A stretch of 64,000 bases of DNA. Source: Prosthecobacter algae (GTDB taxonomy: Bacteria; Verrucomicrobiota; Verrucomicrobiia; Verrucomicrobiales; Verrucomicrobiaceae). The translations under genes and the position numbers were made by a program. This document shows, in pieces, positions 40,072 through 64,000 of the stretch. Position 1 is the stretch's first letter, and the number at the start of each line of letters is the position of its first letter. Location of the stretch: the NCBI RefSeq assembly GCF_039542385.1, contig NZ_BAABIA010000005.1, positions 310,001 through 374,000 of the forward strand. The letters are read 5' to 3'. The notes beneath the pieces were generated by a model. The model searched no databases. It was not told the DNA's origin and saw nothing but the letters and a program-made list of their open reading frames with translations.

Positions 40072-40113
40072 GGTTGATTGTTCCCAGTGAAAGCAGCCCT
40101 CTCCCACTCCCTC

Positions 40114-41271: not shown

Positions 41272-41283
41272 CCCCTTACCGAC

Positions 41284-44105: not shown

Positions 44106-44690
44106 ATGAATGCCCATTCTCCAAACTGGCCCCCCGAGCCCGCTCCCAGTGCCCGGTCATCCCCGCTCTTCCCGGCTGCCCAGAAAGCCACCAGCCAGCA
44201 GGCGGCCTCCATTCCTGCCGCAGGGCTCACCGCCATTTTCCAGAACCTCATCAAGGTCACTCATGACGGCGAGCACGGCTTCCAGCATGCGGCCGCCCAG
44301 GTGCATGACCGCGCCCTGCGCGATGAATTTCACAAATATGCACGTGAGCGCCGCAGCATGGCCAGTGAACTGACGCAGCTCATGAACCTTGTGGGCGAAA
44401 ACACCGCCGTCCCTTCGGGTTCCGCAACGGCGGTATTCCATCGTACCTGGATGAGTCTGCGCACCGTCCTCTCCGGAGAGCCGAACGACCAGGCCATCCT
44501 TGATGAAGTCGAACGCGGCGAAGAGGCGGCTGAAGAGGCCTTTCATGAGGTGCTGGATCCTACCGACCTACTTCCGGAAGCCGTTCGGTCAGGCATTGAG
44601 ACCCTGGCCCAAAAAGTTCATCGCGCCCATGAGCGGGTGCGTCGTCTGCGGGACAGCGGCCTATACCAGCGGCCGCACCGCGGAGTTTAA
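44106..44690 (+). CDS. DUF2383 (PA2169-type) four-helix-bundle protein
   Basis: The 194-residue protein has a Pro/Ala/Ser-rich N-terminus (about 35 residues) and then a ferritin-like four-helix bundle. Key segments are LTAIFQNLIKVTHDGEHGFQHAAAQVHD, LRDEFHKYARERRSMASELTQLM, TAVFHRTWMSLRTVLS and ILDEVERGEEAAEEAFHEVL, with Glu/His candidates for metal binding. This is the DUF2383/PA2169 family, typical of stress islands. Its stop overlaps the stop of the convergent rpoN gene by four bases. Confidence 0.88.
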   Translation: MNAHSPNWPPEPAPSARSSPLFPAAQKATSQQAASIPAAGLTAIFQNLIKVTHDGEHGFQHAAAQVHDRALRDEFHKYARERRSMASELTQLMNLVGENTAVPSGSATAVFHRTWMSLRTVLSGEPNDQAILDEVERGEEAAEEAFHEVLDPTDLLPEAVRSGIETLAQKVHRAHERVRRLRDSGLYQRPHRGV

Positions 44691-46090: not shown

Positions 46091-46230
46091 AACGCGGGAG
46101 AGGTGAATCGAAGGGACGGGGACCAGACGATGGCAATTTTTCTTGGGAGATCAAAAGCGCATCCAATTGACCACTTTTGCAAGAACCATGCCTGCCGGAT
46201 AAACCTTTGGCAGGGGTAGCATACAGGCAT

Positions 46231-46246
46231 CGGCATGTGACCTGCA
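46231..46246 (+). promoter_or_regulatory. sigma-54-like element upstream of the transglutaminase genes
   Basis: CGGCATGTGACCTGCA has GG-N10-GC and three mismatches to the consensus. It lies about 115 bases before the start at 46363, in the gap between divergent rpoN and transglutaminase genes. Confidence 0.45.
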
Positions 46247-46362
46247 CCTCTTTCTTTTGCAAACTGCAAGAGCTGGACGAATGCATCCTGCAAATTCAGG
46301 GGATGTTTATGAGAAGCCAGACGGCACAGGTCTTGCAGCACCCTTTTGCACCCTCTCCTCCC

Positions 46363-47208
46363 ATGACTTTCAAGATCACCTGCGAATTGGACTACACGGT
46401 CACCTCTCCTCTGACCTTCCTGCTGAACATCCGCGCCCAAAAGAACGCGCGTCAAAAGGTCCTCGAAGAAAAGTTCCACCTCACCCCGACGATGCCGCAT
46501 GTGAAGCATGCAGATGAGGTGACGGGCAACCGCTTTGACCAAATCACCGCCCAGGTTCCCGGCATTTATCAGGTGCGCTATGAAGCCCTGGTGGAGAACA
46601 GCCCTGAAATCCTGTCCCGAAAAGACCTCGTTGATACGGAAGTACACGAGTTTTCACTCGAGGTCCTGGCCTGCCTGTACGCCAGCCGCTACTGCCAGTC
46701 CGACCGGCTGGGCAACCTGGCGGCCCAGCAATTCGGCCATTGCGAAACCCCGATTGAACGAGTGCTTGCTGTCATCGCCTGGATCTCGGAGCACATCGCG
46801 TATGTCAGCGGTTCCACCAATGCCAGCACCTCCGCCGTGGATTCCCTGGTGGAGCGCCAGGGCGTGTGCCGTGACTTCGCCCATCTGGGCATCGCCATGT
46901 GCCGGGCCATGAATATCCCTGCCCGGTATTTTACCGCCTATGCCCACGAACTGAACCCGCCCGACTTCCATGCCTGTTTTGAGACTTGGGTAGGTGGTCG
47001 CTGGCTGCTGTGGGATGCCACCGGTCTAGCCTCTCCCGACGGCGTGGTACACATCGGCACGGGCAGAGATGCCGCCGAAGTATCCGTCTGCACTTCCTTT
47101 GGCAATTTGCAATTGGAGCGCCAGAACATCACCTGCGAGGCGATGGATGAAAACTACCAAAAACTGACGGCGGAACAACTTCAGCAGGTCTTCATCTCCC
47201 ACGCGTAA
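46363..47208 (+). CDS. transglutaminase-like family protein
   Basis: The 281-residue protein has an N-terminal beta domain and a transglutaminase/protease-like core. The catalytic triad is visible: Cys in ERQGVCRDFAHLGIAMCRAMNIPARY, His in DFHACFETWV and Asp in WLLWDATGLA. Members act as proteases, peptide amidases or cross-linkers; the substrate is not known. ATG at 46363 is chosen since the domain starts there; the open frame upstream spans the promoter gap. A second, different transglutaminase-like gene follows after 48 bases. Confidence 0.9.
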   Translation: MTFKITCELDYTVTSPLTFLLNIRAQKNARQKVLEEKFHLTPTMPHVKHADEVTGNRFDQITAQVPGIYQVRYEALVENSPEILSRKDLVDTEVHEFSLEVLACLYASRYCQSDRLGNLAAQQFGHCETPIERVLAVIAWISEHIAYVSGSTNASTSAVDSLVERQGVCRDFAHLGIAMCRAMNIPARYFTAYAHELNPPDFHACFETWVGGRWLLWDATGLASPDGVVHIGTGRDAAEVSVCTSFGNLQLERQNITCEAMDENYQKLTAEQLQQVFISHA

Positions 47209-47256
47209 CTTGGTTAACCCACAAGGTGGGCCTGCTCCCGCACCACCCCCTCTCCC

Positions 47257-48171
47257 ATGAGACGTTACCACATCGAGCACCGCACCATTTACCGTTACTC
47301 GGAGCCGGTGCGCTTTGGCCTGCACCGGATGGTGCTGCGGCCGCGTGAAGGGCATGATGTGCAGGTGGTGAAGCATGACCTGGAGGTCTATCCTCCGGCG
47401 CACTTTTTCTGGCTGACCGACCTTTTTGGCAACAGCATCGCCCTGGCCGAAATGCCAGACATGGCCGACCGGTTAGAAATCATCAACAAGGTGATCATCG
47501 AGCGCGTAGGCGGCCCGGAAGACGCGGCACCACGCCAGATCACCCGTCCCTCCCTAGTCACCCTGCCTGTGGCCTACCCGCAAATCGAACAACCAGTTGT
47601 CAGCGGGTACTTGCAATCGGTGTATCCGGAGGATCAGCCGGTCATCAGCCAGTGGGTGGCCACTCAAATGGAAAGCCTGCCCGCAGGCTCAGCCGCTGAG
47701 GCTGTGGCCCATCTCAACCGCTGCATCCATGCCCAGATCCGCTATCGGCGGCGTGAAGAACGTGGTGTGCAGACCCCGGCCAACACACTGACCTACGCCA
47801 CCGGATCTTGCCGGGACATGGCCACTCTGTTGATGGAAGCCTGCCGTTCCCTGGGGCTGGCCGCCCGCTTTGCCAGTGGCTATCTGGATGCAGCCGCGGC
47901 TACCGCAGGTCGCGGATCCACCCATGCATGGGTGGAAGTCTATTTTCCAGATAACGGCTGGTGCGGTTTTGATCCCACTGTGGGGGATGCCCTGTCACCC
48001 CGGCATGTGACCCTCGGCGTCAGTGCCCACCCGCGCGGGGTCATGCCCATCAGTGGCATCTATGAAGGGGCGCCCGGCTGCTACCTGGGTATGGAAGTGG
48101 CCGTCACCATCCGCCAAAGCCTGGACGATGCCAGCCCGCCCGAAGTCTTGGTTCCGAGCGGCATTTCATAA
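47257..48171 (+). CDS. transglutaminase-like family protein (N-terminal beta region type)
   Basis: The 304-residue protein starts RRYHIEHRTIYRYSEPVRFGLHRMVLRPREGHD, the bacterial transglutaminase-like N-terminal region. The core has the catalytic Cys in TYATGSCRDMATLLMEACRSLGLAARFASGY, His in GSTHAWVEVYF and Asp in WCGFDPTVGD. It lacks a signal peptide, so it is probably cytoplasmic. It forms an operon with the preceding transglutaminase gene. The shared fold but low similarity shows that the two are not recent duplicates. Confidence 0.92.
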   Translation: MRRYHIEHRTIYRYSEPVRFGLHRMVLRPREGHDVQVVKHDLEVYPPAHFFWLTDLFGNSIALAEMPDMADRLEIINKVIIERVGGPEDAAPRQITRPSLVTLPVAYPQIEQPVVSGYLQSVYPEDQPVISQWVATQMESLPAGSAAEAVAHLNRCIHAQIRYRRREERGVQTPANTLTYATGSCRDMATLLMEACRSLGLAARFASGYLDAAAATAGRGSTHAWVEVYFPDNGWCGFDPTVGDALSPRHVTLGVSAHPRGVMPISGIYEGAPGCYLGMEVAVTIRQSLDDASPPEVLVPSGIS

Positions 48172-48206
48172 AAAACCACCCCTGGCACTGAAAGCACCAG
48201 GGGTGG
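48170..48206 (-). terminator. rho-independent terminator of the csbD gene
   Basis: CCACCCCTGG (48176-48185) and CCAGGGGTGG (48197-48206) form a 10-bp stem. On the minus strand it is followed by TTTTTT, ending the csbD transcript; the convergent transglutaminase gene stops at 48171. Confidence 0.85.
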
Positions 48207-48259
48207 GAAAAGGTCATGCCATACAGGCGATGACTCGGGGGATGAAAATCCGTGAGCCG

Positions 48260-48445
48260 TTACACCTCTTCGATGTAGCGGCGGATCGCTTCTTTCGTCT
48301 CACCCGTGCGCTGCTGCAGGCGGCCGAGAAGTTCATCCTCCTTGCCTTCTTCAAAGAGAAGGTCGTTGTCGGTCAGCTCGGCATATTTCTGCTTCAGCTT
48401 ACCTTTGGTTTCGTTCCAGGTGCCTTTGATTTTGAGCTTTGTCAT
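48260..48445 (-). CDS. CsbD family stress protein
   Basis: This 61-residue protein is a compact CsbD domain: [29 protein letters not shown] followed by FEEGKEDELLGRLQQRTG and a C-terminal helix. CsbD proteins are small, highly expressed stress proteins of unknown mechanism. The domain is closely related to the lipoprotein's CsbD domain at 43462-43809. ATG at 48445 is the family start; the frame runs further upstream through the probable promoter. A -24/-12-like element is 50 bases upstream. Confidence 0.9.
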   Translation of the reverse strand: MTKLKIKGTWNETKGKLKQKYAELTDNDLLFEEGKEDELLGRLQQRTGETKEAIRRYIEEV

Positions 48446-48493
48446 AATATGGAAGGGTTGTTCAGAGGCGGCTTCCCGCCCCTCATCTTCCTT

Positions 48494-48509
48494 TGCGCAA
48501 ACTGTGCCA
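48494..48509 (-). promoter_or_regulatory. sigma-54-like element upstream of csbD
   Basis: On the minus strand TGGCACAGTTTGCGCA has a perfect TGGCAC -24 half and the invariant GC ten bases after GG; the TT of the -12 half is GC. It lies 50 bases before the csbD start. Confidence 0.45.
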
Positions 48510-48608
48510 CGCATGCGCAGGCAACCCCGTGCCTAGGGCCAGGGAGTCGTATCCGCCAAACGGTGATTCATCTGCACGATGCCACCTTTGCCAAATGCAC
48601 AGCCATGG

Positions 48609-51600
48609 CTAACGCCCAGGCAAAACTGCCAGAGCTGCCTCCAGGGCCTCGATCCGCACTGGTTTGATGAGGTGAGTCACAAAACCGGCATTCCGGCTAC
48701 GCACCAAATCCTGCTCCATGCCAAAGCCGCTGACGGCAATGCCCTTCAGAGGCAGTTGGGTCGCGAGCTCTTCCATCAGTTCGTATCCCGTACCATCCGG
48801 CAGGCCGAGATCGGAAATCAAAAGGTCAAAGGACTGGTCTGCCGCCAGCACCCGGGCCTCAGCCAGGGAGCCCGCCGTGCTCACCTCATGACGGCGACGG
48901 CGCAGGAGGGAGGAAAGGGCGATGCGCGTAGGCTCATGGTCCTCCACCAACAGGATGCGCAGAGGAGACAGAGAGGCGGCGGGCGCAGCAGACACATCCT
49001 GAGCGGGCAGTGACGGCAGCGTGAGGGGGCCTCCATCGGTGACACGGGGTAGCTTCACGACAAAGGTAGCCCCCTGGCCACGCCCAGCGCTGGTGGCGGA
49101 AATCTGGCCCTGATGCAGATCCACCAACATGCGGGTGATGGCCAGCCCCAGCCCGAGACCGCCAAAGTGCTGGGAGCCACCTTTGGCCGCATGATCTCCC
49201 TGAGAGAAGGCATCAAATATCCGGTGGATCTCATCCTCCGTCATCCCGATGCCCGTATCGCTCACCTCCACACAGACGGAGCGCCCTTCATCCTCCAACC
49301 GCGTGACGATGCGGATGCTTCCCTGAGCAGCCGTGAACTTGACTGCATTGTTCAACAAATTCCACAGCACTTGCTGCAGGCGCACGGCATCCGCTAGCAC
49401 AGGCAGTGGCGTGGGCACCAGATCCAGATCCATCCGCACCTGCTTGCCATCCGCCTCGCCGCGAATGGTGGCCAGGGCATCGCGGATGATGTCGTTTAAA
49501 TCCATCGGATGCAGGTCCAGCGCCAGCTTACCCCGTGTGATGCGGGTAATGTCCAGCAGGTCATCAATGAGCCGGGCTTCCAGATCCACATTTTTGCGGA
49601 TGGTTTCAAAATCCGCGCGGGCGCTTTCCGGGATGTCCCGGCTCTTGCTGCCCTCACTGGCCAAAAGCAGCACCGGACTGAGCGGGGTGCGCAGCTCATG
49701 GGAGAGACGCGCCAGGAAATCATCCTTGGCACGCACCGCCTCCAAGGCACGGTCGCGGGCCTGTTCCAAATCATGCTCCGCCTGCTTGCGCATGGTGATG
49801 TCCGTCAGCACGGAGACGATGCCCACCACGTCCCCGTCTGCGCTTCTCTCCGGCACGAAGATCACGTGGCCCCAGCGCGGGCCCAGCGCCTCGTAAGGGA
49901 TCGCCATTTCGAATTCCACACGCTCGCCCCGGAAGGCACGCTCGATCATCGGCAAAGCACTGCGGTAGGCGTTGTCGCTGACGACGTCACGGGCATGTTT
50001 GCCGATCACTTCCTGCGGCTCAAAGCCATACCGTTCCGCATAGGGCCGGTTGACAAACTTGTAGCGATGCTGCTGGTCAAACTGGGCCAGCAAAACGGGC
50101 GCGTGATCTGTCACCAGCCGCAGTTGCTCCTCACTGGCGCGCAGGGCATTTTCGGCCTCGCGGCTGTCCGTAATGTCCTGAGTGATGATGAGTCCCGCGA
50201 TGACATCCCCCAACCCGTTGCGAATACCGACGACGCTGTTGCGCACCCAAACATAGGTGCCATCCGGCAGGATATCCCGCTTCTCGATGATGAAGGAGGC
50301 CCCGCCTTTGATCATGGCCTCAAAAACTGCCATGTTCTGGGTCCGGTCTTCGGGATGGGTAATGGCATGGACATTCATGCCCAGCAGCTCATCACGGGTG
50401 CGGGCGACGATCTCGCAGTAAGCATCATTGACCATCGTGATGCCGCCTTCGAGATTGGTCTGCACAATGCCGGAGCCCGCCTGGGCAAAAATGGCGGACA
50501 GCCGGGCTTCACGTTCGCGTAGGATGGTGTCCGTCAGCTTGATGTCTTCGATGTCCGTGTTGGACCCGTACCATTTGATGATTTTTCCGGCCTCATCCAT
50601 CACTGGCATCGCCCGGGTCTTGAACCAGCGGTACTGCCCGTCTGCACGGCGGATGCGCACCTCCACATCGACGATGCTGCGGGTGTGGGCGGCCTCGTTC
50701 CAGGCTTTTTCCAGCACCTGCCGGTCCTCGGGGTGGACGGCCTCTGTCCAGCCATGGCCGCGCTGCTCTTCCTCCCGCCTGCCAGTGTAGGTACACCATT
50801 GCGGACTCACAAAATCCCAGCTCCCGTCCGCTACGCTAGTCCAGACCAAGTGGGGCATCGCCTCGGCCATGTCTCGCCAGCGCCGCTCGCTGGCCCGCAG
50901 CGCGGTTTCCACCCGTTTCACCTGCTCCAGCTCACGGTGGAGGGAGGTGTACAGCTCGGCATTGTCAATCGCGATGGCAGCCTGCGCGGCCATGCCCATG
51001 AGGAGGCCTTCAGTCGCCTCAGTAAACATACCAGGTTCATCATGGCCGAAGAACATGCCGCCGATGACCTGCCCGGAGCTTGAGACGACAGGCACCGCGA
51101 GGTAGCTCCTCACCGGCAACTGACCCGCCGGCATGCCATGATAGAGCGCGTTTTTGCCATACCTTGGATCTGCCAATACGTCGTCCACCCTCACCACACC
51201 TTCACCACGGAAGGTTTGGGCAAAGAACTCCGCGTTACTTGCCATCGGGAACTTGGAGAAGGCCTCTCTGGGAATACCTGAAAGGGTATAAAGGGTGTAA
51301 GCCTCACCCTTCTCGTTAGTCACGTTGTAAAAGAACGCCCCAAACTGCGCCCCGCTGATTTCACGGCTGGCATCTGTGACGGTCTGCACGATTTTCTCCA
51401 GGTTCCTTTCGGCCACCAGCGAGCTGCTGACGTGGTTCAGCACGGCCAGGATCTGGGATTGCTGGCGCAGCGCCTCTTCCGTCTTCTTGAAGGTCGAAAT
51501 GTCGAGGTTGATCCCCGCCCACTGCACGATCTCCCCCTTCGGATTGCGAATGGGAATGCCACGCGAAAGCACCGGATGCCACTGACCGTCCACGCCTTTG

Positions 51601-54600
51601 TACCGCAACTCTTTTTCCCAGATGCCTCCCTGACGGCAAATCTCCTGCCACTCTGCCAGGGTGGACTCCGCATCATCAGGATGCAGCACCGCACTCCAGC
51701 CATCATTGGCGCACTGTTCTTGGGTGATGCCAACCAGTTTGAGGAAGGATTCGCTGGTGTAAACGCTCCGGCCTTCGGCATCGCACACCCAGATGCCATA
51801 ATTGATGGACTCGCCGATGCTGCGGTAGAGCTGCTCCCGCCGCACGAGCTCCAGCTCGTTCTTTCTCCGCTCCGTGATATCGCGGCCAATCTTGGAAGCC
51901 CCAATGATGCGCCCTTCGGCATCCTTGATGGGAGAGATGGTCAACGAGATATCCACCAAGCCGCCATCTTTGCGCTGCCGGACCGTCTCATAATGATGAA
52001 TGTATTCGCCACGGCGGATGCGCTGCAGAATGGTCGGCTCCTCATCCTGCCGCTCTGCGGGAACGAGCAGGGTGATCGGTTGGCCGATCATCTCATCTGC
52101 CGAATAACCAAACATGCGCTGCGCTCCCAAGTTCCAACTCGTGATGATGCCATCCAGATTTTTGCTGATGATGGCATCGTCCGAAGAGGTGACGATAGAG
52201 GCCAGCCGCTGACGTGCCTCCGAAGACTTGAGCTGCTCCAGCACGAGGGCGGCGGAATGTGTGACGATGCGGATGAACTTCAGCTCATCCTCATCGAAAT
52301 GCGTGCGCACCCGGCTAGCAAAGGAGAGGGTGCCCAAAAGTTCGCCCCCCGCGATCAGCGGATTGCAGGCATAAGTCTGGATGCCGAGGCCGCGCACTAG
52401 GTTCGCCTTGTCGTAATCGCTGTTCTGGATGTCATTCGCGACGATGCTCTGGCAAGTCTGGGCTACCGTGCCGCAGACCGCCTGGCCAAAGTTCAGTCGA
52501 TGCATGGCCCGGGCCGTCTCTTCATCAATGCCCGCACAGGAATGCAGCTCCAGCGCATCACCCGCAGGCGTGACCATGAAGTTAAAATAAGTATCCGCGC
52601 GCAGGTGCGTGGTCACCTTGGCAAAGAGTTCCCGCACCACCGTTTCCGGATTCCGGGCGCCGAGAAGCTGGGCCAGTGTTTCCGAAAGGAGCTGCATTCG
52701 CTCGCCACGGATTTGCACGTCCAGCGCGGCTCGCGCCTGCTCCACCAGCGGCCTCACCCGGCTGACGACGTTGTCCAAGAGCCGCAACTCATCCTCGCGC
52801 CAGTTCCGTGGCCGGGCTGAACCGACCGCCAGGAGTGTGCGCACGGGGCCCGAATTGGAAAAAGGGGCCACGGCAAAGGATCGCAGGCCGAGGGGCTCAA
52901 AGCGCGAGGCAAACTCGCAGGTCAGCTCATGCTCCGCTACATCCCCCACAGCGACCACCTGGCAGGTGATCTTTTGCCACAAGTCTAGAGAGGCAAAATC
53001 CTCTGGATGAAAGCGTCCTGCCAGCCGGGGTGCCCCCTCATGAGTCCAATCCTCCATGACGGTGAGCCACTCGAAACTGTCTGCCACCTCCACAAACCAG
53101 CAACGGTCACACTCGAGATGCTGGCCGACTTTTTCAGACGCCACCCGCAGGAGGTCCCGGGGATCATTCAGCAGACTGAGCTGCTGGCTGAGGGCGCTGA
53201 GAAAGGTGGCGTGGCGGACATCACGCTGGCGGTCCTCCAGTTCCAGTTTCAGGGCGCTGGCCGTCGCGCGAGATTCCGTGACATCCTGAAAGATATTGAT
53301 GGCACCGATGATGCGGCCCTGGTCATCCCACAGCGGGTCAATGCTGACGCTGGCCGTGAAGCGGGTGCCATCTGGGCGCTCCACCTCCGCCTCCATATTG
53401 CGGAAGCTTTTCCCATGGAGCACTGCCTCCGCCATTGGGCTTTGCTCCGGTGCGATGGCGGATCCATCCTCCAGCAGGATGCGATGAAAGCCGCAGAAAC
53501 GCGTCTCAGGATCGTTGAGATTGGGCGTGCGTTTCCAAAGTTCCGCCGCACGGGGATTGAAAAAGGTGATCTGCCCTTTCTGATCGCAGGTGTAAACACC
53601 GGCGGGCAGCAGCGTGAGCATGTGCTGCAGGCGCTCTTCCGCTTGGCTGGCCTGGCGGGCCGACTCCTGGCGGGACTGCGCCAGGGACAGGTGCGTGCTG
53701 ACGCGAGCCAGCAGTTCACGGCTGTCGAAAGGCTTGATCAGGTAATCATCGGCCCCGGCATCCAGCCCTTCCACACGCGCCTCCTCGCCGGCCCGCGCCG
53801 AAAGGAGGATCACGGGTATCATCCGAGTAGCCGGGTCCTGGCGCAGGGCTTGCAGAAGTCCAAACCCATCCAGCCCCGGCATCATGACATCCGATAGCAC
53901 CAGATCGGGCCGCCAAGTTTGCACGGTGGCCAGCGCCGCCTGCCCATCGGCCACGGTCTGCACCTCAAACCGAGTGGCAAGCAGATGACTCACGTATTCC
54001 CGCATGTCGGCATTGTCATCTGCCAGCAGGATACGCTTCCGTGAACTGCCCAAAACAGACCCTGAGGCGGGTGCCGCAGGCAGGTCGGTCGGCAGCCAGC
54101 GTTCCGTCTCGGCCAGGAAAGCCCCGTCTGAGCGATGGGCATGAGGTTTGACACCAGGCCGGACTTGCTCAGGTGGCAGATGATCCCGGCCACGGGGGAG
54201 GCGCACGGTGAAGGTGCTACCCAGGCCCGGCTGGCTTTCCACGGTCACGGTGCCGCCGTGCAACTTCACCAGTTCCGCCACCAGGGCCAGGCCGATGCCG
54301 GTCCCCTCATGACTGCGGCCCTCCGTTCCCTGGACGCGGAAAAAGCGCTCGAACAGGCTGGACTGGGCGGACTGGGGGATGCCCGCCCCCGTATCTGCCA
54401 CGGCCAGTTCGACCATTTCCGGCCCATCTCGCAGGCTGATGCGGATGCTGCCTTCCAGCGTGAACTTGAAGGCATTTGAAATCAGGTTCAGGACGATCTT
54501 TTCCCACAAATCCCGGTCCACAAACACTGGTTCGCGAAGTGGCGGGCACTCCACGCGAAAATCGAGCCCGGCTCTTTTCATCGCCGGGGCAAAGCTTTCC

Positions 54601-55919
54601 GCCAAGTCGGCCGTCACAGCCGCGAGATCCAGCGGTTCAAACGCCGCCTCCAGTCGGCCAGCCTCCAGGCGGGAGAAATCCAGCAGCGTGTTGACCAGCT
54701 TCAGTAGCCGCAGACCGTTGCGATGCGCCACCGAAAGGAGTTCCCGGCCATTGCCGGCTGCCGCCTCCCCTGCCTGGCCCAAAAGATCCTCCAGGGGCCC
54801 CAGCATGAGGGTGAGCGGGGTGCGAAACTCATGGCTGACGTTGCTGAAAAAGACCGTTTTGGCGCGGTCTATGGCCGCCAGTTCCTCCGCCCTGCGGATC
54901 TGGCGTTCATAAGCGCGGACATTGGAAAGTGCGGCTGAAATCTGGCCTGCCAGCAATTCCAAAAAACCCTGGTAGGGAGCATCAAAGGGACGATAAGGAT
55001 TCAACCCCACCACAAGATGGCCGGCAGGCTGGTCCGTCCCTTGTTCCAGAATGGGGATGATAGCGGCCCGGGATGACGGCTTGTCCCAAGCACTGCCCGG
55101 CAGGTCCTCAAAACGTGTATGCAGATCCTCCAGGCACTGGATGCCGGGGCTGGTCGTGCGGCAGGCCAGCGGCCAGACATTGTCCTCACCCCCAAAACGA
55201 AGGCTGGCCGGGGCGGCCCGATGCCCGGGCGACACCCCATGGCAGCAGGATAGCTGGGTCTCCTCGCCACAGGGCTGGGCGAGGTAGATGAGGGCAAAGG
55301 GGAGATCCTTCGGCTCCTGCTGGATGCAATGCTGAAAGGCAGCACAGAGATCTCCTTCCGTGGTGACTCCCGTAAGACCGGTGGCCAGATCGCGCAGCAG
55401 GCTCAGCCGCCGCTCGCTGATGATCCTCTCCGTCTCCTCCGTGACCACGCACAGCATCCCCCCAACATTTTCATCATCCCCAGGGATGGGGCTGTAGGAA
55501 AAGGTGTGGTACGTTTCTTCCGAAAAACCGCTGCGCTCTAGGAACAGTTGCAGCCCTTCATCCCAGGTGGCCACTCCGCTGCGGACCACGGATTCCGCAC
55601 GCGGTCCCACATCCTGCCAGATTTCCTTCCAGACGATGGTCGCAGGCTCCCCGAGCCAGTCTTTTTTCAACCCCAGAGTGGGGAGGTAGGCATCATTGCA
55701 GAAAAACCAAAAGTCCGGCCCCCAGCCCATCCACATGGCAAAACGGGAATTCAGCATCAGGCTGATGGTCGTCTTCAGGCTCTGCGGCCAGGAGTCCAGA
55801 GGCCCCAGAGGGTGCTGCGACCAGTCAAACTCACGCATGCGCCGCCCCATTTCGCCGCCTCCCTTCAACCAGGAGCCGGAAACAGGCGAAGCTGGAGCAT
55901 GGGGAGGGTCCGTCTTCAT
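48609..55919 (-). CDS. giant multidomain hybrid histidine kinase with two kinase-receiver modules
   Basis: The product has 2436 residues. The N-terminal PAS-like sensor ([16 protein letters not shown]) and a GAF domain precede kinase module 1 ([14 protein letters not shown], His363; HATPase with [10 protein letters not shown]), followed by receiver 1 ([13 protein letters not shown], Asp677). The centre holds about nine PAS/GAF units, among them [38 protein letters not shown] and [18 protein letters not shown]. Kinase module 2 ([15 protein letters not shown], His2074; [14 protein letters not shown]) ends with receiver 2 ([11 protein letters not shown], Asp2370). No membrane helix is seen, so it is soluble. 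ATG at 55919 overlaps the preceding kinase stop as ATGA. It ends the bacteriophytochrome gene run. Confidence 0.92.
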
Positions 55920-56974
55920 GCAACGGGGCCTGGCACGGGAGAGCCCTTGGGCAGGGTGAAAAAGAATCGCAGCCCGCCACCTTGCACGACCTCGCAACCG
56001 CAACGCCCCCCCTGCAACTCCACCAACCGGCGTGCGATGGGCAGGTCCAGGCTCTTGGCGCTGTGGCCCTGGTGCAGCTTCTCAAAAGGCCACCACAGGG
56101 CCTGGCGCTGTTCTTCCTTCAGTTCAGGCCCCTGGTCCTGCACACTGAATTCGTAGCTGTCGGGCAGCTCCTTCCACTGCATTTCGACGGTTCCGCCCTG
56201 GGGGCTTCGCTGCACGGACTGTTGCAGCAGATTGGCCCAGACGACCTGAAGCCAAGCCGGCACACAGGCCACCAGTGGCCAAATCTTGGGCTCCTGCATG
56301 CGCACCCCCATCTTCATGGCAGCGCGCTCCACCGTCTGGCGTCCAGCCCAGGCTACTTGGCCCACATCCGCCATCTCCATGGGCTGGGGCTCCACCGTGG
56401 CACGGGCCACCTGACTGGTACGCTCGATCAGTTTCAGGACCAACTGGGTGGAATCGTAAAGAGGCGTGGTTAGGGCGGCATCTTCTTCCGAATGATCTGC
56501 GAGGATTTCCTTCAGCAGCTCTGCCGTGGTAAAAATGCCGCTCAGGGGAGTGCGCAGGTCATGGCTGATGCGCCGTGCAAAGGTCATCAAATCACCTCGC
56601 AGGCGGGCATTTTCCTGCAGCAGCTCATGCCTTTGTAGGGCCGCGTGGAAAACTTGGGCCATCAAGGGACCATGCCAGTCTTCCTGAGGAATGACAGTCA
56701 GGGCACTGCTGTGAAGGGTGGTGGAAAGGGCCACGACCGGCCCGTGGGCCAGCCCGTTTTCCTGGCCTGCTGTCAGCGCCAACTCCAGTTCCTCCATCGT
56801 CGGCTCAATGAGGACGCGCAGGCTACCTGCTGAGGTTGGCCTGTGCAGAAGGACCTCGTCCACACTTGCGACCTCCTCCACCAGCATGTGCGGATAAGCC
56901 CGCTCGATCCCTTCCCGTGCAGCCTGGCGGGCCACGGCATTTCGCTCGGAGAACAGGAAGTAGGCAGTCGGCAT
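55916..56974 (-). CDS. histidine kinase with degenerate N-terminal receiver-like domain
   Basis: The 352-residue soluble protein begins with a receiver-like segment ([19 protein letters not shown]) that lacks an obvious phospho-Asp. It then has a HisKA helix with [22 protein letters not shown] and a HATPase with [28 protein letters not shown] and [15 protein letters not shown]. The ATPase glycine boxes are weak, so catalysis may be impaired. It overlaps the giant kinase by four bases and lies 58 bases after the preceding hybrid kinase. It may act as a relay or dimerisation partner in the light-signalling run. Confidence 0.82.
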
Positions 56975-57032
56975 CGGGATCGGTAAACTTTGGTTCGGTT
57001 CTATTCGGCTGCGGGCTCCTTTTTGCGCTTCA

Positions 57033-59081
57033 TCATCGTGCAGAAGGCGACAAAGCCACCTGAATGGCCGCCTCCAAAGTTTGCACCTGGATAGGCTTGG
57101 TCAAGTGGGCCACAAAACCCGCTTCGGTGCTGCGGTCGATATCACGGTCCATGCCATAGCCAGTCAGGGCGATGCCTTTCATGCTGTGGCGGCCTGCCAG
57201 CTCCTGCATGAGGTCATAGCCGTTGCCATCGGGCAGGCCGATGTCGGAGATCAGCAGATCAAAACTTTCGCCCTTGGAGATCTGGCGCGCCTCCTCCAGG
57301 CTAGCGGCTGTGATGACTGTATAATGCCGTCTTTTCAGCAGATGCGCCAGGGCCGTGCGGGTGGGTTCGTGATCCTCGACCAGGAGAATCCGAACGGAAG
57401 CTCCAGTTCTGACTTCTGCCGTTTCCCCCGGATCTGGGGTGTTCAAAGTGAGGCAAATGTCCGGCACGAGCGGTAGACGGATGACAAAAACGGCCCCCTC
57501 CCCAGGGCCTTCGCTGCAGGCCTGGATCTGGCCAAAGTGGCTCTGCACCAGCATCTGACTGATGGCGAGTCCAAGCCCCAAGCCGCCAAAACGATGAGAG
57601 CCGCCGTCCCCGGCGTGGTCTCCCTGGGCAAAGGCATCAAACACCCGCTCCAGTTCAGCGGGCGTCATGCCGATGCCCGTATCCACAATGCCTATTTCGA
57701 TGACGTCATCCTCCAGGATCGTGCGTGTGGTCACGGTAATGCAGCCACCTTCGGGGGTGAATTTGACCGCGTTTTTCAACACGTTCCAAAACACCTGCTG
57801 CAAGCGCACGGCATCTCCCAGAACAGTGTGGCCCGTAGCCTTCAGTTGCTGGCGCAGGGAGAGATGCTTGGCATGGATCTCGACGGCCACATTGGTCATC
57901 GCATCCGTCAGCACGGCATGAATGTCCACCGGCAGCCGGTCGAGCGCCATCTTGCCGCGGCTGATCCGGGTGATGTTCAGCAGGTCGTCAATCAGACGAG
58001 CCTCCAGATCCACATTTTTACGGATGGTCTCAAAGACGGACCGCACATGCTCTGGCAGGGACTCATCATCCGCCGCGTCGCTGGAGAGCAGCAGGATGGG
58101 ATTCAGGGGGGTGCGCAGTTCATGCGACAGCGCCGCCAGGAAATCATCTTTCGCCCGCGAGGCCGCCAGGGCTTCATCACGGGCGTGTTCCAGTTCCATT
58201 TCGGCCGTCTTGCGGGCCGTCGTATCAGACATCACCCCGATCAACCCATGCACCGTACCATCATGCCCGCGCTCAGGCACATAAACGACGCTCATCCAGC
58301 GCAGGCCCAGGGTTTGAAAGGGGATTTCGATTTCAAACTCCACCCGTTCTCCTAACAGCACGCGGTCCAGATAAGGGAGGATGATCTCAAAGGCCTGCTT
58401 TCCCATGATGTCCTGGATGTGGTGGCCCACCACCTCCTCTGGTTCACGGCCAAAGCGGCTGGCATAGTGTCGATTGACGAACTTGTAGCGGTAGTCGCGG
58501 TCACACAACACCAGCAGGACGGCGGCATGGTCGGTGACGACACGGAGCTGGTTCTCGCTCTGCCGTAGCCGGGTCTCAGCATGCAGGCGGTCGCTCATCT
58601 CCTTTTCCAGCCGCTGCACGTGGATCTGCAGTTCCGCGTTTTTTTGGGCCAGCTCATGCCGCTGGGTTTCCAATTCGCGCTGGATGGCGGCTTTTTCCGT
58701 CGCATTTTCCACGGCCCGCCGCAGTACGATCGCATTGGTGCCGCCTTTGGGCAGGAAATCATGGGCACCGCTGCGCAGGGCCTCGACGGCCAGTTCCACC
58801 TCATGATTGGAGGTGAGCATGACGATGCCAAAGGCGTTTTCACCATGGGTGCCGACAATCTTTTTCACCAAGCTCACGCCATCGCTATCGGGCAAATTGA
58901 AGTCCAGAAGCACACAGTCGGGCCGGTTCGACTGTAGATGCAGCAGGGCCTGGGCAGCCGTCGAAACTTCGCTGACGACATACGGGTTTTGCACGCCACG
59001 CGTCAGATACCGGCGGAAGATCACACAGTCGGTCAGCGAATCATCCACAATCAGGATATGGAGCGGCGTGGAGGCGAGCAT
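57033..59081 (-). CDS. hybrid histidine kinase (REC-PAS-HisKA-HATPase-REC)
   Basis: The 682-residue soluble protein has an N-terminal receiver (ILIVDDSLTDCVIFRRYL, phospho-Asp in CVLLDFNLPDSDG), a coiled-coil linker and a PAS domain (VTDHAAVLLVLCDRDYRYKFVN). HisKA ([17 protein letters not shown]) and HATPase ([27 protein letters not shown]) follow, then a C-terminal receiver (LLISDIGLPDGNG, LTKPIQVQTLEAA). Its PAS, kinase and last receiver closely resemble the C-terminal part of the giant kinase, so one derives from the other. ATG at 59081 is used; the open frame upstream overlaps the previous gene's end. The N-terminal receiver could take phosphate from the bacteriophytochrome. Confidence 0.92.
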   Translation of the reverse strand: MLASTPLHILIVDDSLTDCVIFRRYLTRGVQNPYVVSEVSTAAQALLHLQSNRPDCVLLDFNLPDSDGVSLVKKIVGTHGENAFGIVMLTSNHEVELAVEALRSGAHDFLPKGGTNAIVLRRAVENATEKAAIQRELETQRHELAQKNAELQIHVQRLEKEMSDRLHAETRLRQSENQLRVVTDHAAVLLVLCDRDYRYKFVNRHYASRFGREPEEVVGHHIQDIMGKQAFEIILPYLDRVLLGERVEFEIEIPFQTLGLRWMSVVYVPERGHDGTVHGLIGVMSDTTARKTAEMELEHARDEALAASRAKDDFLAALSHELRTPLNPILLLSSDAADDESLPEHVRSVFETIRKNVDLEARLIDDLLNITRISRGKMALDRLPVDIHAVLTDAMTNVAVEIHAKHLSLRQQLKATGHTVLGDAVRLQQVFWNVLKNAVKFTPEGGCITVTTRTILEDDVIEIGIVDTGIGMTPAELERVFDAFAQGDHAGDGGSHRFGGLGLGLAISQMLVQSHFGQIQACSEGPGEGAVFVIRLPLVPDICLTLNTPDPGETAEVRTGASVRILLVEDHEPTRTALAHLLKRRHYTVITAASLEEARQISKGESFDLLISDIGLPDGNGYDLMQELAGRHSMKGIALTGYGMDRDIDRSTEAGFVAHLTKPIQVQTLEAAIQVALSPSAR

Positions 59082-59110
59082 GGCTACTGGGCGGGGGGGA
59101 CGGGGCTTGG

Positions 59111-59611
59111 TCAGACTAAGGAGACGGCTTCGTCCGGCTTTTCCAGAACCGTGCCAGTACGGACGGGGGAAGGCAGGCGTACGGCCTCCACCCAATAGTC
59201 CACCAGCAGCTCGACAGCCCGCTTGAAGGCCGCGTAGTCCGTCTGTTTCACGTGGTAGGAATTGGCCCCGTGCTCATAGCACCACTCGATGTCATGCGGG
59301 CTGCTGGAGGTGGAAAAGATGACCACCGGCGTGCGCTTCATCCGGGGGTGTTGCCGCACGGCGCGCAGCACCTCTTTGCCGTTGAGGCCGGGCAGGTTTA
59401 GGTCCAGAACGATGAGAGCCGGCAGTTCTGGAAGCGGCTTTTGCGGCAACAGCGGGGCATTGAGGAGGGCAAGCACCTGCTCTGCACTGGCACAACGCTG
59501 CATCTTCACCGTGATCTCCGGGCGAGCACGCCTGACGATGCGCTCCAAGGCCGCATAATCTTCATCGCTGTCCTCAACGATGAGGAAAGATGGATGGGGG
59601 GATTCGCTCAT
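59111..59611 (-). CDS. Rcp1-type single-domain response regulator
   Basis: The 166-residue protein is a receiver of the Rcp1/phytochrome-partner class: FLIVEDSDEDYAALERIV, phospho-Asp in LIVLDLNLPGLNGKEVL, VVIFSTSSSPHDIEWCYEHGANSYHVKQTDYAAF. The SSPxDI and ANSY-xxKP-like segments are typical of regulators paired with cyanobacterial and bacterial phytochromes. It starts inside the stop of the bacteriophytochrome gene (ATGA overlap), so it is almost certainly its partner. No output domain is present; the following hybrid kinases may receive the signal. Confidence 0.92.
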   Translation of the reverse strand: MSESPHPSFLIVEDSDEDYAALERIVRRARPEITVKMQRCASAEQVLALLNAPLLPQKPLPELPALIVLDLNLPGLNGKEVLRAVRQHPRMKRTPVVIFSTSSSPHDIEWCYEHGANSYHVKQTDYAAFKRAVELLVDYWVEAVRLPSPVRTGTVLEKPDEAVSLV

Positions 59612-61854
59612 GGCACGTTGGGGTCCTGTTCAAGGGTGAAATAGAAGGTGGTTCCACTGCCAGATTTGGATTCAAGCCAGATGCGGCCGCCGTGCCTTTC
59701 GATGATTTTTTGAACAATCGTCAGGCCTGCTCCGACACCACCACCATACTCCTCACGACCGTGGAGTCGTTTGAAGATTTGGAAAACGAGCTGCCGATGC
59801 TCCTCGGCGATGCCGATGCCATTGTCCCTGACGTAAAAAACTGGCGGGCTGTCCAATTCCCCCGCCTGCCAGCCGATCTCAATCTCGGACTGCGGCTTGT
59901 CATTGTACTTGATGGCATTGCTGATGAGGTTGGACATCACCTCGCTGAGGCGGTCCGCATCGCCATTCACTTCAGGCAGAGGCCGTGGCACGGTGATGCG
60001 CGCTCCGCTTTCCTGAATTCGGGCGATGAGCATGTCCTGAGCATCCTGGACGATGGTGTTCATATCCACCCGCCGACCGTGGATCTCTCCACGGGAGAGC
60101 CTGGAATAGTAAAGCAGGGAGTCCAGCAGGGTCTCCATGCGCTCTGTGAGCCGCATCATCGTGCGCAGGTAGCTGATGCCCTGCTCATCCAACTGGTCGG
60201 CAAAGTCCTCAAGAAGAAAATTGGAATAGTTGCTGATGCCACGCAAGGGTTCCTTCAAATCATGTGAGGCAACGTAGGCGAAGGAGTCGAGCTGGCGGTT
60301 GCGCTCATCCAGTTCGGAGTTCAGCCGCACCAACTGTTCGGCCCGACGCACCTCCGTTTCCAAGATTGTCTGCCGCAGGATGCGGGCGGCATCGGTTTCG
60401 CAGGCCAGCCAGGGCCTGGATTTCCCCCGCACCTCCTCCTCCCAGAGCTCAAAGGATTTTCGCGGGGTAAGGCGATCGCCATGCGGGCCGGTTTCCACAG
60501 CTTTGGTCGGATCGCCCGCCCAGTTCATGGTCTGCTTTTCCTCAGGCCTGAACCAGAGGAGGTAAGCCGGTGCCTGCCGGGAAAGACGCGCGGCCAGCAC
60601 CCCGCTGGCCACTGAAGCCTGGCCTGCCCAGCCGGGAAAGTGCTTGGCTACATGGTCGGTGGACCAGACGGCCGGCTCCACCTTCTCCGCCAGCAGCAAT
60701 GCTAGAGCATGGACGTCCTTTTCATCCGGCGTATCGCCCCGCAAGTACACCGTGTCATTGAGCAGCAGCGCAGCACCGCCCGCCTCAATCCCAGCGAAGG
60801 TGTGGCCGGGACTCTGGATCAGCACGGGATGAAATTCCGCCTGCATGGCCATCGCATCGGCGAGCACACGATGCTCCCGGTGCAGCCGCAGCTTGTACTC
60901 ATGCTGCTCATCTCTTTCCTTGTTGCTGACCTGGAGCGAGAGCATGTGGGCCAGGAACTCGCAGGCCATGCGGGTGGTGTGGGAAACGTAACGCGGCGAG
61001 TAATGGTGGCAGGCGAACAGGCCCCACAGCTCATCCGCAATGACAATGGAAATGGACATGGAGGCCCCCACGCCCATGTTTTGCAAATACTCTGCGTGAA
61101 TGGGGGACATGGAGCGGCTGACGCAGTAGCTCATGTCCAGCGGGGCACCTGTATCTGGCCGCAGGGCAGGGACCAAGCCCACGGGCTGATACCTGACATC
61201 GGGATTCAGCCGGAGCTGGGACTTCACAAATAGGGCCCGTGCCTGCTTGGGAATGTCTGAAGCGGGATAATGCAGCCCCAAGTAGGACCCCAGATCCTCA
61301 CGCTTCGATTCGGCGATGACGTGACCGGAGGCATCGTCGGCAAAGCGGTACACCATGATGCGGTCAAACCCTGTGAACTGTCTCACATGCTCGGACGCCC
61401 GCTGGCAGAACTCCACCACGGAGCTGGTGCCCTGAAGCTGATTGAGCGTGTGCTTTAGCGAGACATAGACCTCTTCATGCACCATCGAGCCTTGGTCCGG
61501 CCACAGCTCCAGTTCCAAGATCAGCACGCCCTGGTACCTGTGCACCAGAGCTTCAAAAACGAGTCCGCTGGGGATGATTTTCAGGGGCGGCAGGTAATGC
61601 GGTGCTGCCTCTAGCTGCTTGCCCAAAACATGCTTCTGCAAGTAGGCCAGATCCGCCTCGGCGATAAGCGAGTGCAGGGATCCATTCAGGATCTCCTCCA
61701 AAGACAGACCAAAACGTTCTGGGACGTTGGCGCTTACCTGCAAGACCCGCAGCGAAGGCTCCTCCAGCACCAGAATGAGGGCATGGGGCTGGATCGAACC
61801 CGGGATGTGGATGGGCTCGCGGTCGCAGTTGGTCAGGTCAACTTGGTCGGACAT
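59608..61854 (-). CDS. bphP: bacteriophytochrome (PAS-GAF-PHY-HisKA-HATPase)
   Basis: The 748-residue red/far-red photoreceptor kinase binds biliverdin covalently. The N-terminal Cys10 in LTNCDREPIHIPGSIQPHA is the expected attachment site. The GAF pocket has HYPASDIPKQAR and RSMSPIHAEYLQNMGVGAS with the conserved pocket His (His253). The PHY tongue has PRKSFELWEE. The kinase helix carries YVASHDLKEPLRGISNYS (phospho-His531), followed by a HATPase with NLISNAIKYND, VRDNGIGIAEEH and GVGAGLTIVQKIIERHGG. It follows the heme oxygenase gene by six bases and is coupled to the receiver gene by a 4-nt overlap. Confidence 0.96.
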   Translation of the reverse strand: MSDQVDLTNCDREPIHIPGSIQPHALILVLEEPSLRVLQVSANVPERFGLSLEEILNGSLHSLIAEADLAYLQKHVLGKQLEAAPHYLPPLKIIPSGLVFEALVHRYQGVLILELELWPDQGSMVHEEVYVSLKHTLNQLQGTSSVVEFCQRASEHVRQFTGFDRIMVYRFADDASGHVIAESKREDLGSYLGLHYPASDIPKQARALFVKSQLRLNPDVRYQPVGLVPALRPDTGAPLDMSYCVSRSMSPIHAEYLQNMGVGASMSISIVIADELWGLFACHHYSPRYVSHTTRMACEFLAHMLSLQVSNKERDEQHEYKLRLHREHRVLADAMAMQAEFHPVLIQSPGHTFAGIEAGGAALLLNDTVYLRGDTPDEKDVHALALLLAEKVEPAVWSTDHVAKHFPGWAGQASVASGVLAARLSRQAPAYLLWFRPEEKQTMNWAGDPTKAVETGPHGDRLTPRKSFELWEEEVRGKSRPWLACETDAARILRQTILETEVRRAEQLVRLNSELDERNRQLDSFAYVASHDLKEPLRGISNYSNFLLEDFADQLDEQGISYLRTMMRLTERMETLLDSLLYYSRLSRGEIHGRRVDMNTIVQDAQDMLIARIQESGARITVPRPLPEVNGDADRLSEVMSNLISNAIKYNDKPQSEIEIGWQAGELDSPPVFYVRDNGIGIAEEHRQLVFQIFKRLHGREEYGGGVGAGLTIVQKIIERHGGRIWLESKSGSGTTFYFTLEQDPNVP

Positions 61855-61860
61855 AGGAAT

Positions 61861-62463
61861 CTATGAAGGAAGCCAGCGTGCAAAGACATCAAACGTTTGC
61901 CGCGCAGCCTGCACCGCTGCGGGATGATCCTGAGGATGGCGGGTGGACCAAGCCTCCGCCCAAGTGCCAAATTCGCGCCAGCGCCCCACGGTCTCCGGAC
62001 CGTAACCAGCAAAGAAACTGCCGCCTTGATCGGGCGGAATGTCCAGATGCTGGCCTAACAGGCGGGTGATCACCTGACCACCGAGGGTGGATCCCTCCAG
62101 CACATACAGGCAACCGACGGCAGCGGCGGGGCAGTGAATGTCTGGGAGGTCCACACAACGGGAAAGCGCGGCGACATCCTGCGGCACCAGGCCGAGGGCA
62201 GCCAGGTCCTCCACCAGCCAAGGGGTCTTTCGCCTCCCCTCATAGTCCCAACCCTCAGCCGACCAGTCCATGGCTGTGGCGAGGCGCTGTTCCAGCGGCT
62301 CATAAAGCGTGAAAAAGCCTTCCAGCAGCTTCAGGTAGCTGGTCCGGGATTCAAAATGACGCACGATGTCCAACTGCGTTTCCAGCGCAGCATGAACTTC
62401 GGCCGTCTGAGTTTTGAGCAGGTGTAGAAAAGCCATGGGGCGCGAAACACTTCGTTCAGTCAT
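61861..62463 (-). CDS. bphO: biliverdin-forming heme oxygenase
   Basis: The 200-residue all-helical protein matches bacterial heme oxygenases. FLHLLKTQTAEVHAALETQL holds the proximal heme-ligand His, and VGCLYVLEGSTLGGQVITRLL is the distal-helix Gly-rich stretch. It opens heme to biliverdin, the chromophore of the downstream bacteriophytochrome, with which it is co-transcribed (six bases apart). ATG at 62463 is used; ATG at 62436 (MAFLHLLK) is also possible. It begins the run of six minus-strand genes reaching 48609. Confidence 0.93.
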   Translation of the reverse strand: MTERSVSRPMAFLHLLKTQTAEVHAALETQLDIVRHFESRTSYLKLLEGFFTLYEPLEQRLATAMDWSAEGWDYEGRRKTPWLVEDLAALGLVPQDVAALSRCVDLPDIHCPAAAVGCLYVLEGSTLGGQVITRLLGQHLDIPPDQGGSFFAGYGPETVGRWREFGTWAEAWSTRHPQDHPAAVQAARQTFDVFARWLPS

Positions 62464-62596
62464 CGGCTGGTCTCACGGAGAGCTTCCAGAAGCGGCTCCA
62501 TCTGGCACCAGGGATAGGAAGGGGTGTTCATGCAGGGGGGAGAAGAAAGTTCGTGAACCTATCGGATTTCGGCCTTTTGGCGACCTTACAAAAGTT

Positions 62597-62628
62597 GGGA
62601 AATTTCCCCAGGGCTAAAAAACCCTGGG
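62597..62628. promoter_or_regulatory. overlapping palindromes in the bphO-glgX intergenic region
   Basis: A perfect 12-bp palindrome GGGAAATTTCCC (62597-62608) runs into a hairpin with arms CCCAGGG/CCCTGGG (62607-62613, 62622-62628) around an A-rich loop, followed by TAAAAAACAAAAAAA. On the minus strand the hairpin is preceded by a T-rich stretch. It lies between divergent genes and may be an operator or leader structure. Confidence 0.5.
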
Positions 62629-62689
62629 TAAAAAACAAAAAAACCGTGCCTCCACATCCGCCCAAAATGCTGGAAACGAAGAAACGGCG

Positions 62690-64000
62690 ATGAATTCGCT
62701 TCCCGCCCTCGGCCACGGCACTCCCTACCCCCTGGGGGCCACCTTCAAGAATGGAGGGGTCAATTTCGCCCTCTTCTCTGCTCATGCTCAAAAAGTCGAA
62801 CTATGTCTTTTCGATTCAGCCGAGGGGGGACAGGAAACCCGGATCGAGCTGCCGGAGTGTACCAACCAGATCTGGCATGGCTTTGTCCCCGGACTCGCCC
62901 CCGGGCAACTTTACGGCTATCGCGTACACGGCCCCTATGAGCCTGAGAAAGGTCACCGGTTCAACCCCCACAAACTGCTACTGGACCCTTATGCCAAGGC
63001 CATTGGCCGTCCGTTGAAGGCCTGGGATCCCTGCCTCTTTGGCTATGACTTGGAAGATGACTCCCAAGACCTGTCCTTCAATGAACAGGACTCAGCCACC
63101 CACGCACCGCTGGGCATGGTAATCGACTCCACCTTCGACTGGGAGGGCGACGCTTCTCCAGAGACCCCGTGGCACCGCACCATCATTTACGAGCTGCACG
63201 TCAAGGGCTTCACCCAAAAGCTCAACAGTCTCCCAGAGCATCTGCGCGGCACTTATGCCGGGCTGGCCTCCGACGAAGCCATGGATTACCTGCGCAAGCT
63301 GGGCGTGACCGCCGTGGAGCTGCTGCCCATCCACCATCACCTGGACGACTCCTTCCTACAGGCGCGCGGCCTAACGAACTATTGGGGATACAACACGCTG
63401 TCCTATTTCGCCTTTGAACCCTCCTACGCCTCCACCCAGGATCCGCACGCGGCCATGCGCGAATTCAAGGGCATGGTGAAACGTCTGCACGAAGCCGGAA
63501 TCGAGGTCATCCTCGACGTGGTTTACAACCACACGGCCGAAAGCAGCGAACGCGGGCCCACCCTCTCCTTTCGTGGCATTGACAATGCTTCCTACTATCG
63601 TCTCTCCCAAGAGCACCCGCGCTACTACGAAGACTTCACCGGCTGTGGCAACACCCTGACGATGGAGAACCCCTCCGGCCTGCGCCTGCTGATGGATAGC
63701 CTGCGCTACTGGGTCACAGAAATGCATGTGGACGGCTTCCGTTTTGACCTCGCCAGCGCCCTCGCACGTGAGCTTTTTGGCTGGAACAAGCTGAGCTCCT
63801 TTTTTGATGCCATCGGCCAGGACCCGGTGCTCTCGACCGTCAAACTCATCGCCGAGCCCTGGGACATCGGCATGGGCGGCTATCAGGTGGGGAACTTCCC
63901 AACCGGCTGGGCGGAGTGGAATGGCCGCTACCGCGATGAGGTGCGCCGCTGCTGGAAGGGCAATGACCGCGCCAATGAACTGTCCAAGCGGCTGAGCGGC
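62690..64000 (+). CDS. glgX: glycogen debranching enzyme GlgX, partial at window end
   Basis: The frame is open from ATG at 62690 to the last base (437 codons), so the C-terminus is missing. The protein opens with a CBM48-type domain ([22 protein letters not shown]) and continues with the GH13 barrel: [71 protein letters not shown] (nucleophile Asp region) and [19 protein letters not shown] (acid/base Glu). These are diagnostic of GlgX/TreX debranching enzymes, which cleave alpha-1,6 links of glycogen. It diverges from bphO. Confidence 0.95.

Follow-up and report, generated by a model that had tools for sequence, protein, structure and literature searches.

How phosphorelays arose from two-component systems is an open question, and a phytochrome locus of Prosthecobacter algae brings it down to one gene: what does a histidine kinase do in a light-signalling run after most of its ATP site has been lost? 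The initial annotation of the window (the whole stretch of DNA that was analysed, 64,000 nt) described six genes on one strand and read them as a light-gated multi-step phosphorelay in a layout that was new to it. Our analysis confirmed the six-gene run as an observation, and the interpretation was partly supported. In the text, G numbers denote the genomes of relatives of P. algae and L numbers denote loci.

Gene order and content of the run

The features of the run and its downstream end were as follows.

61861..62463, minus strand: bphO, heme oxygenase, 200 aa as ORF (PF01126)
59608..61854, minus strand: bphP, bacteriophytochrome PAS-GAF-PHY-HisKA-HATPase, 748 aa (Pfam, motifs)
59111..59611, minus strand: rcp, single-domain receiver, 166 aa (PF00072)
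57033..59081, minus strand: hk4, REC-PAS-HisKA-HATPase-REC hybrid kinase, 682 aa (Pfam)
55916..56974, minus strand: hk5, probable pseudo-receiver with HisKA and degenerate HATPase, 352 aa (Pfam, alignments)
48609..55919, minus strand: hk6, giant tandem hybrid kinase, 2436 aa (Pfam)
48260..48445, minus strand: csbD-like gene, 61 aa, perhaps belonging to the run as its seventh member (PF05532, E 2.4e-18)
48176..48206, minus strand: terminator-like hairpin, 14-pair stem followed by TTTTTT, between the convergent csbD and tg2

The ORFs placed bphO, bphP, rcp, hk4, hk5 and hk6 on the minus strand at 62463-48609, and the junctions read from the DNA bore out the operon-like spacing that had been claimed (6, -4, 29, 58 and -4 nt): a 6-nt gap between bphO and bphP, a 4-nt bphP/rcp overlap (ATGA), 29 nt from rcp to the hk4 ATG (59081), a 58-nt gap between hk4 and hk5, and a 4-nt hk5/hk6 overlap with the hk6 ATG at 55919. 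The longest ORFs of hk4 and hk6 open at TTG codons within the preceding genes (59195 and 56003, respectively); the ATG starts give 682 and 2436 aa, and with the 352 aa of hk5 the three kinases total 3470 aa, close to the "about 3,500 residues" first given. Gene identities agreed with the Pfam domain scan, which found no DNA-binding domain in any protein of the run. No 19-residue hydropathy window in the six proteins was above 1.48, so they are probably soluble, as had been proposed. The run encodes the components of a multi-step His-Asp relay, namely kinases, hybrid receivers and a free receiver.

The bphO product matched PF01126 at E 6.7e-15 and has His24 in AEVHAALE as well as GSTLGGQ, which we take to be functional motifs of heme oxygenase. 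Its true start is probably M10 (62436), giving 191 aa, because the G016 orthologue begins at M10. Pfam found PAS_2, GAF, PHY, HisKA and HATPase_c in BphP, that is, the PAS-GAF-PHY sensor and HisKA-HATPase output of a bacteriophytochrome histidine kinase, and all scored ATP-site residues are retained. The predicted Cys10 was present, together with PASDIP at 197, SPIH at 250, PRKSF at 464 and SHDL at 530; an N-terminal biliverdin Cys, PASDIP and PRxSF are presumably what defines bacteriophytochromes, and BphP has all three. The closest named BphP among the matches listed was in an Opitutus MAG (58%). The receiver Rcp matched PF00072 (E 1.7e-12) and has the key residues Asp14, Asp70 and Lys122.

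The scored catalytic residues of hk4 are intact, and the gene occupies the slot that REC-kinase genes hold behind rcp in other phyla. In hk6, a PAS/GAF-HK-REC block, a PAS/GAF array and a PAS-HK-REC block follow one another; Pfam found two HisKA-HATPase-REC blocks, and both catalytic cores are intact at the scored residues. Within the P. algae genome, the hk4 tail has its best paralogue in the last ~520 aa of hk6, at 56% identity; the five other matches at E <= 1e-40 were 37-47% identical. This suggests that a PAS-HK-REC block was duplicated.

Conservation of the run in relatives

BphP was found at E <= 1e-100 in 14 of 68 family genomes, eight of them among the 48 genomes of the genus. Five of these eight carry the close BphP type, namely P. 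algae itself, G016 (84%), G013 (78%), G017 (77%) and G046 (76%). Conservation of the order in relatives had been named as a check on the run, and all six genes were found in order in P. algae, G016, G013 and G017. The order is not due to chance, since it is the same in the three relatives with the 4-nt hk5/hk6 overlap in all. The G046 run ends after hk5, and no hk6 match was found elsewhere in that genome at E <= 1e-200. Downstream of the run in P. algae, G016, G017 and G046 come csbD, a pair of transglutaminase genes and rpoN; none of these lies in the 4.1 kb fetched downstream of the G013 run, so the run has been kept there in another setting. An extra hybrid kinase gene lies directly upstream of bphO in G013 (L099 18031-19743) and G017 (L100 3-1631) and lengthens the run.

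In another genus (G064, G065 and G067) the unit is bphO-bphP-rcp-hk4, divided between two contigs in G064, with a divergently oriented hk5 homologue within ~0.8 kb of bphO. In G047, G060 and G061 we found bphO-bphP with rcp and one kinase with receivers, and in G012, G018 and G034 bphO-bphP with one kinase with receivers and no rcp seen between bphP and the kinase.

Comparison with known operons

To judge how unusual the layout is, we surveyed 80 named loci, the best-scoring of at least 590 candidates with BphP relatives, and followed same-strand ORFs within 250 nt that matched our kinase, receiver or heme-oxygenase queries, a walk that misses other kinase types and wider gaps (such as the kinase further off in L023). 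The P. algae locus lies outside this survey, and its kinases were counted from the ORF list and Pfam. Among these best 80 of at least 590, the same-strand chain behind bphP held one kinase in 40 loci, two in three, three in none and no kinase in 37, some of the last owing to contig ends (L030, L073 and L097 have <100 nt after bphP, and other contigs also end early). A receiver gene after bphP followed by a REC-starting kinase was found in 41 of the 43 kinase-bearing loci of this best-scoring set; the exceptions were L061 and L094, and the L094 kinase is a second phytochrome. Three kinases after the receiver occurred only in this genus, among the 14 family genomes and these best-scoring 80 loci.

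The published operons agree with this picture. As described in part of its report, the RtBphP1 operon of Ramlibacter tataouinensis consists of hmuO, bphP1, cheY (RtBRR) and an atypical hybrid kinase (RtBHK), matching genes 1-4 of our run in kind and order, and that part mentions no further kinase, whereas our run adds hk5 and hk6 (PMC6848086). Order, strand and tight spacing of this bphO-bphP-RR-REC kinase type all recur in the P. algae run. The agp1-agR-exsG operon of A. tumefaciens likewise has a phytochrome, its receiver and then a histidine kinase, and the same paper cites that Agp1 phosphorylates AgR in a light-dependent manner; unlike our run, it has only one extra kinase, and the portion consulted describes no heme oxygenase gene (PMC1552090).

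Thus, genes 1-4 have a known layout, by the survey of named loci and the Agrobacterium and Ramlibacter operons, and the sequences place the operon mostly in a known kind with hk5 and hk6 as an addition behind it. The idea of a categorically new layout was dropped on the 80 best-scoring loci of at least 590 and on the available parts of both reports (PMC1552090, PMC6848086). What stood of the claimed novelty is the addition of hk5 and hk6, which is not in the published operons. In the literature, represented mostly by titles and abstract openings, neither an operon of this make-up in this group nor a phytochrome operon containing an ATP-dead kinase came to our notice.

Loss of the ATP site and retention of the histidine in hk5

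The annotation had noted one degenerate kinase in the run, and this is hk5, with four of five scored ATP-site residues lost. Across the order, 336 genomes searched at E <= 1e-45 yielded hk5 homologues in 11. The phospho-accepting His138 is retained in all 11, and all five ATP-site residues are kept in seven, including G017 and G046. The changed positions are 252 (N box), 284 (G1) and 308 and 310 (G2), where the N-box Asn, the second G1 Gly and the two G2 Gly are replaced by Q, E, S and D in P. algae, by Q, E, N and E in G016, and by L, D, Q and N in G013. The N-box Asn and G1/G2 glycines expected of an active HisKA histidine kinase are therefore missing from the P. algae hk5. The fifth residue, D280, is retained in these three dead copies, so hk5 could still have some residual nucleotide binding. 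As a control, 36 of 37 other kinase cores of the P. algae genome keep all five residues at the same columns, the 37 being those found by the BphP query rather than a full census and the L194 H-box being uncovered; the one exception is L181 (G000:C5:381490-382290), with a changed G1 box and two of five scored residues lost. The hk5 homologue of G115 (L161 5855-6889; a 68%-complete genome) keeps the His and is altered in the G1 box, which may reflect a second loss that arose independently.

The dead copies were compared for constraint. Between P. algae and G016, the coil and DHp are 90% identical (pN 0.071, pS 0.738), the dead CA domain is 82% identical (pN 0.121, pS 0.727) and the N-terminus is loose (54% identical); synonymous sites are near saturation, which makes the pN/pS ratios rough. 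By these sequence comparisons the dead copies are under purifying selection, strongest around the His. The H-box reads HDLRT, Thr included, in P. algae and G016, and HDLRAN in G013, where the Thr is lost and the His kept.

In the best trees the three dead copies form one group. Support for the P. algae, G016 and G013 clade was 84/91 and 87/87 with neighbouring genes (none starred), 98/99 with whole hk5, ATP boxes included, and 76/61 (unstarred) with hk5 without its ATP boxes. The ATP-site loss in these three copies likely had a single origin. It was not tied to the presence of hk6, since G017 has hk6 and an intact hk5 and the G046 run has an intact hk5 without hk6.

N-terminus and structure model of hk5

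Residues 1-112 of hk5 are a probable pseudo-receiver joined to the kinase core. They aligned collinearly with the receiver profile (P 2.2e-4, with a probability of only 45%; CA-domain control P 0.13), and the top Foldseek rows belonged to the REC-kinase LvrB and spanned most of the length, with TM <=0.35 and low pLDDT in this part. The acidic pocket of a receiver is missing from the P. algae copy: the D-D pair aligns to E10-R11, the phospho-Asp to E57 and the Lys to Q97. The AlphaFold2 model (16-row alignment) had a mean pLDDT of 67.6, with block means of 84-93 at 201-280 and 28-81 elsewhere. It matched kinase cores, with a VIA Z of up to 19.3 over 221 residues at 6.2 A (9epn), and DivL and RetS were among the sequence and fold matches alongside ordinary kinases. 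ChpT and Spo0B were not among the 50 hk5 matches listed by Foldseek or by VIA, which excludes neither. On the whole, the model adds little to what the sequence tells.

Possible roles of hk5 in the run

The dead but conserved hk5 with intact sister copies is the most informative part of the run. Because its ATP-binding site is lost and its phosphate-carrying residue kept, hk5 may have changed its role from kinase to relay protein. Precedents are Spo0B, ChpT and PhyT, which are thought to derive from kinases with a degenerated catalytic domain, as stated in part of PMC5898713, and ChpT is described in an excerpt of PMC3433190 as a kinase-derived histidine phosphotransferase serving a hybrid kinase. 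In the wide sense of such phosphotransferases, hk5 resembles them in its kept phospho-accepting His and apparently degenerate catalytic domain (PMC3433190, PMC5898713, in part). It differs in its probable N-terminal pseudo-receiver, its still-scored HATPase_c, its intact sister copies and the lack of a PF10090 (ChpT profile) match at E <= 0.01, so hk5 was rejected as a member of the ChpT family by sequence; the five PF10090 matches elsewhere in the genome were weak, none over the cut-off.

Our tentative reading, held at somewhat below even confidence, is that a BphP-Rcp switch is wired to two hybrid kinases, with hk5 as a phosphotransfer step like Spo0B, ChpT or PhyT, or as a regulatory pseudokinase. 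The run would then be one operon-like, presumably co-transcribed unit of a red/far-red switch and its wiring. BphO would make biliverdin, BphP would bind it, and BphP would phosphorylate Rcp under light control. The hybrid kinases hk4 and hk6, intact by sequence, would pass other signals through their PAS/GAF domains to their own C-terminal receivers. The hk5 protein would descend from a REC-kinase that lost its ATP site in this lineage and kept the phospho-accepting His, and would most likely move phosphoryl between the hybrid receivers and Rcp, in steps and a direction that we infer; alternatively, it would be a pseudokinase binding the hybrid receivers or Rcp.

The relay reading is favoured by the gene order in four genus members, including G013 with its other downstream neighbours. 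Against a relay role of hk5 stand G017 and G046, where an intact hk5 sits in an operon of identical or almost identical make-up. Genomic partners of hk5 were also surveyed. Of the 11 genomes with hk5, eight have it at the bphP locus, five within the run and three in divergent orientation (G064, G065 and G067), and a hybrid kinase of the hk4/hk6 type is the same-strand neighbour in 7 of 11: within the run in P. algae, G016, G013, G017 and G046, and away from bphP in G012, where hk5 precedes a REC-HK-REC ORF by 29 nt, and in G070, where it follows a hybrid kinase ORF after 49 nt.

The P. algae genome encodes hybrid kinases of the kind that would use Hpt, and no Hpt match (PF01627) was found in it at E <= 0.01, hk5 included, with controls matched in 8 of 14. 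Hpt matches numbered none in G016, three in G013, one in G017 and two in G046; at least one was found in 50 of 68 family genomes and none in 18. The missing Hpt lends a relay role of hk5 weak support, since G013 combines an equally dead hk5 with three Hpt matches, and Hpt goes unmatched in 18 of 68 family genomes anyway. An explanation of the dead hk5 as a consequence of missing Hpt was set aside as weak by the same G013 matches.

A more specific form of the relay reading is possible, though we hold it to be doubtful: hk5 would be an independent and recent conversion of a kinase into a histidine phosphotransferase in a phytochrome operon, with the intact state in the slot of sister species, serving a light-gated hk4/hk6 relay. 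If true, evolution of the Spo0B/ChpT type would be caught within one genus. The same gene in the same slot has an ATP site intact by sequence in some genus members and dead in others, so the ATP-site change and its effect on the light pathway could be tested by an orthologue swap.

The main rival to phosphotransfer, which we consider rather unlikely, is a DivL-like regulatory pseudokinase: hk5 would have ceased to move phosphate and would instead bind a phosphorylated receiver, or pair up with hk4, hk6 or BphP and tune these partners. It would explain why the CA domain stays constrained with the ATP site lost, and DivL and RetS turned up among the matches, if together with ordinary kinases. 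DivL is moreover a precedent of a kinase-like protein repurposed within a two-component network, with a section heading in the report reading "DivL Lacks Kinase and Phosphatase Activities" (PMC4211667, seen as an excerpt). Conservation of hk5 speaks against this rival. DivL is not known to have the phospho-accepting His, whereas hk5 keeps it in every homologue, and the helix around it is the most conserved part.

It is improbable that the run unites independent sensors in one transcript, with BphP-Rcp acting alone, three kinases on other signals and no joint relay. The separate hk5-hybrid kinase pairs of G012 and G070, the G046 run without hk6 and the bphP-kinase intervals of G012, G018 and G034, in which no rcp was seen, would fit such independence; however, the bphP-rcp-REC kinase core recurs across phyla (best 80 of at least 590 named loci), and the Ramlibacter kinase mutant resembles bphP mutants in the described part of that work (PMC6848086).

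Less probable still is that hk5 now serves solely to dephosphorylate Rcp or a hybrid receiver. Phosphatase activity of HisKA kinases is believed to require the H-box Thr, and its retention in P. algae and G016 is in line with this role, but the ATP-dead G013 copy lost the Thr and kept the His, which mildly disfavours a pure phosphatase. A decaying pseudogene, for which the lost conserved boxes could be taken, is hardly credible given the open frame, the 59-73% identity among the three dead copies and pN far below pS in DHp and CA.

Transcription signals and flanking genes

Internal promoters and terminators had been named as a check on the run, and over 47000-64000 such sites were near chance: 3 promoter-like sites against 3.5 expected, and 18 terminator-like sites against 13.2 (sd 4.3). 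One terminator-like site within hk4 (57509-57492) is also present in G016, and it is not decisive since the coding sequence there is conserved in G016 too. No Rfam match at gathering scores and no tRNA by ARAGORN was found. A 23-codon ORF directly upstream of bphO was dropped for want of a counterpart in G016, the one relative compared.

The csbD-like gene, which was missing from the initial annotation, lies on the same strand 163 nt after hk6 and ahead of the strong hairpin, and has homologues in three of four close relatives (L098, L100 and L101, not L099). A second csbD-like stress gene at 43465-43641 is 66% identical to the copy at 48260-48445. Two transglutaminase genes (46177-48171) are convergent with the run, and a homologous pair adjoins the hk5 homologue of G115 (L161), which belongs to another family. 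The rpoN gene lies at 44687-46090, and a few kb from it, at 40078-42687, a REC-kinase gene is followed by a sigma-54 activator gene (REC-AAA). Further away, 7759-15915 on the minus strand encodes a 2718-residue protein with an M36 metallopeptidase domain.
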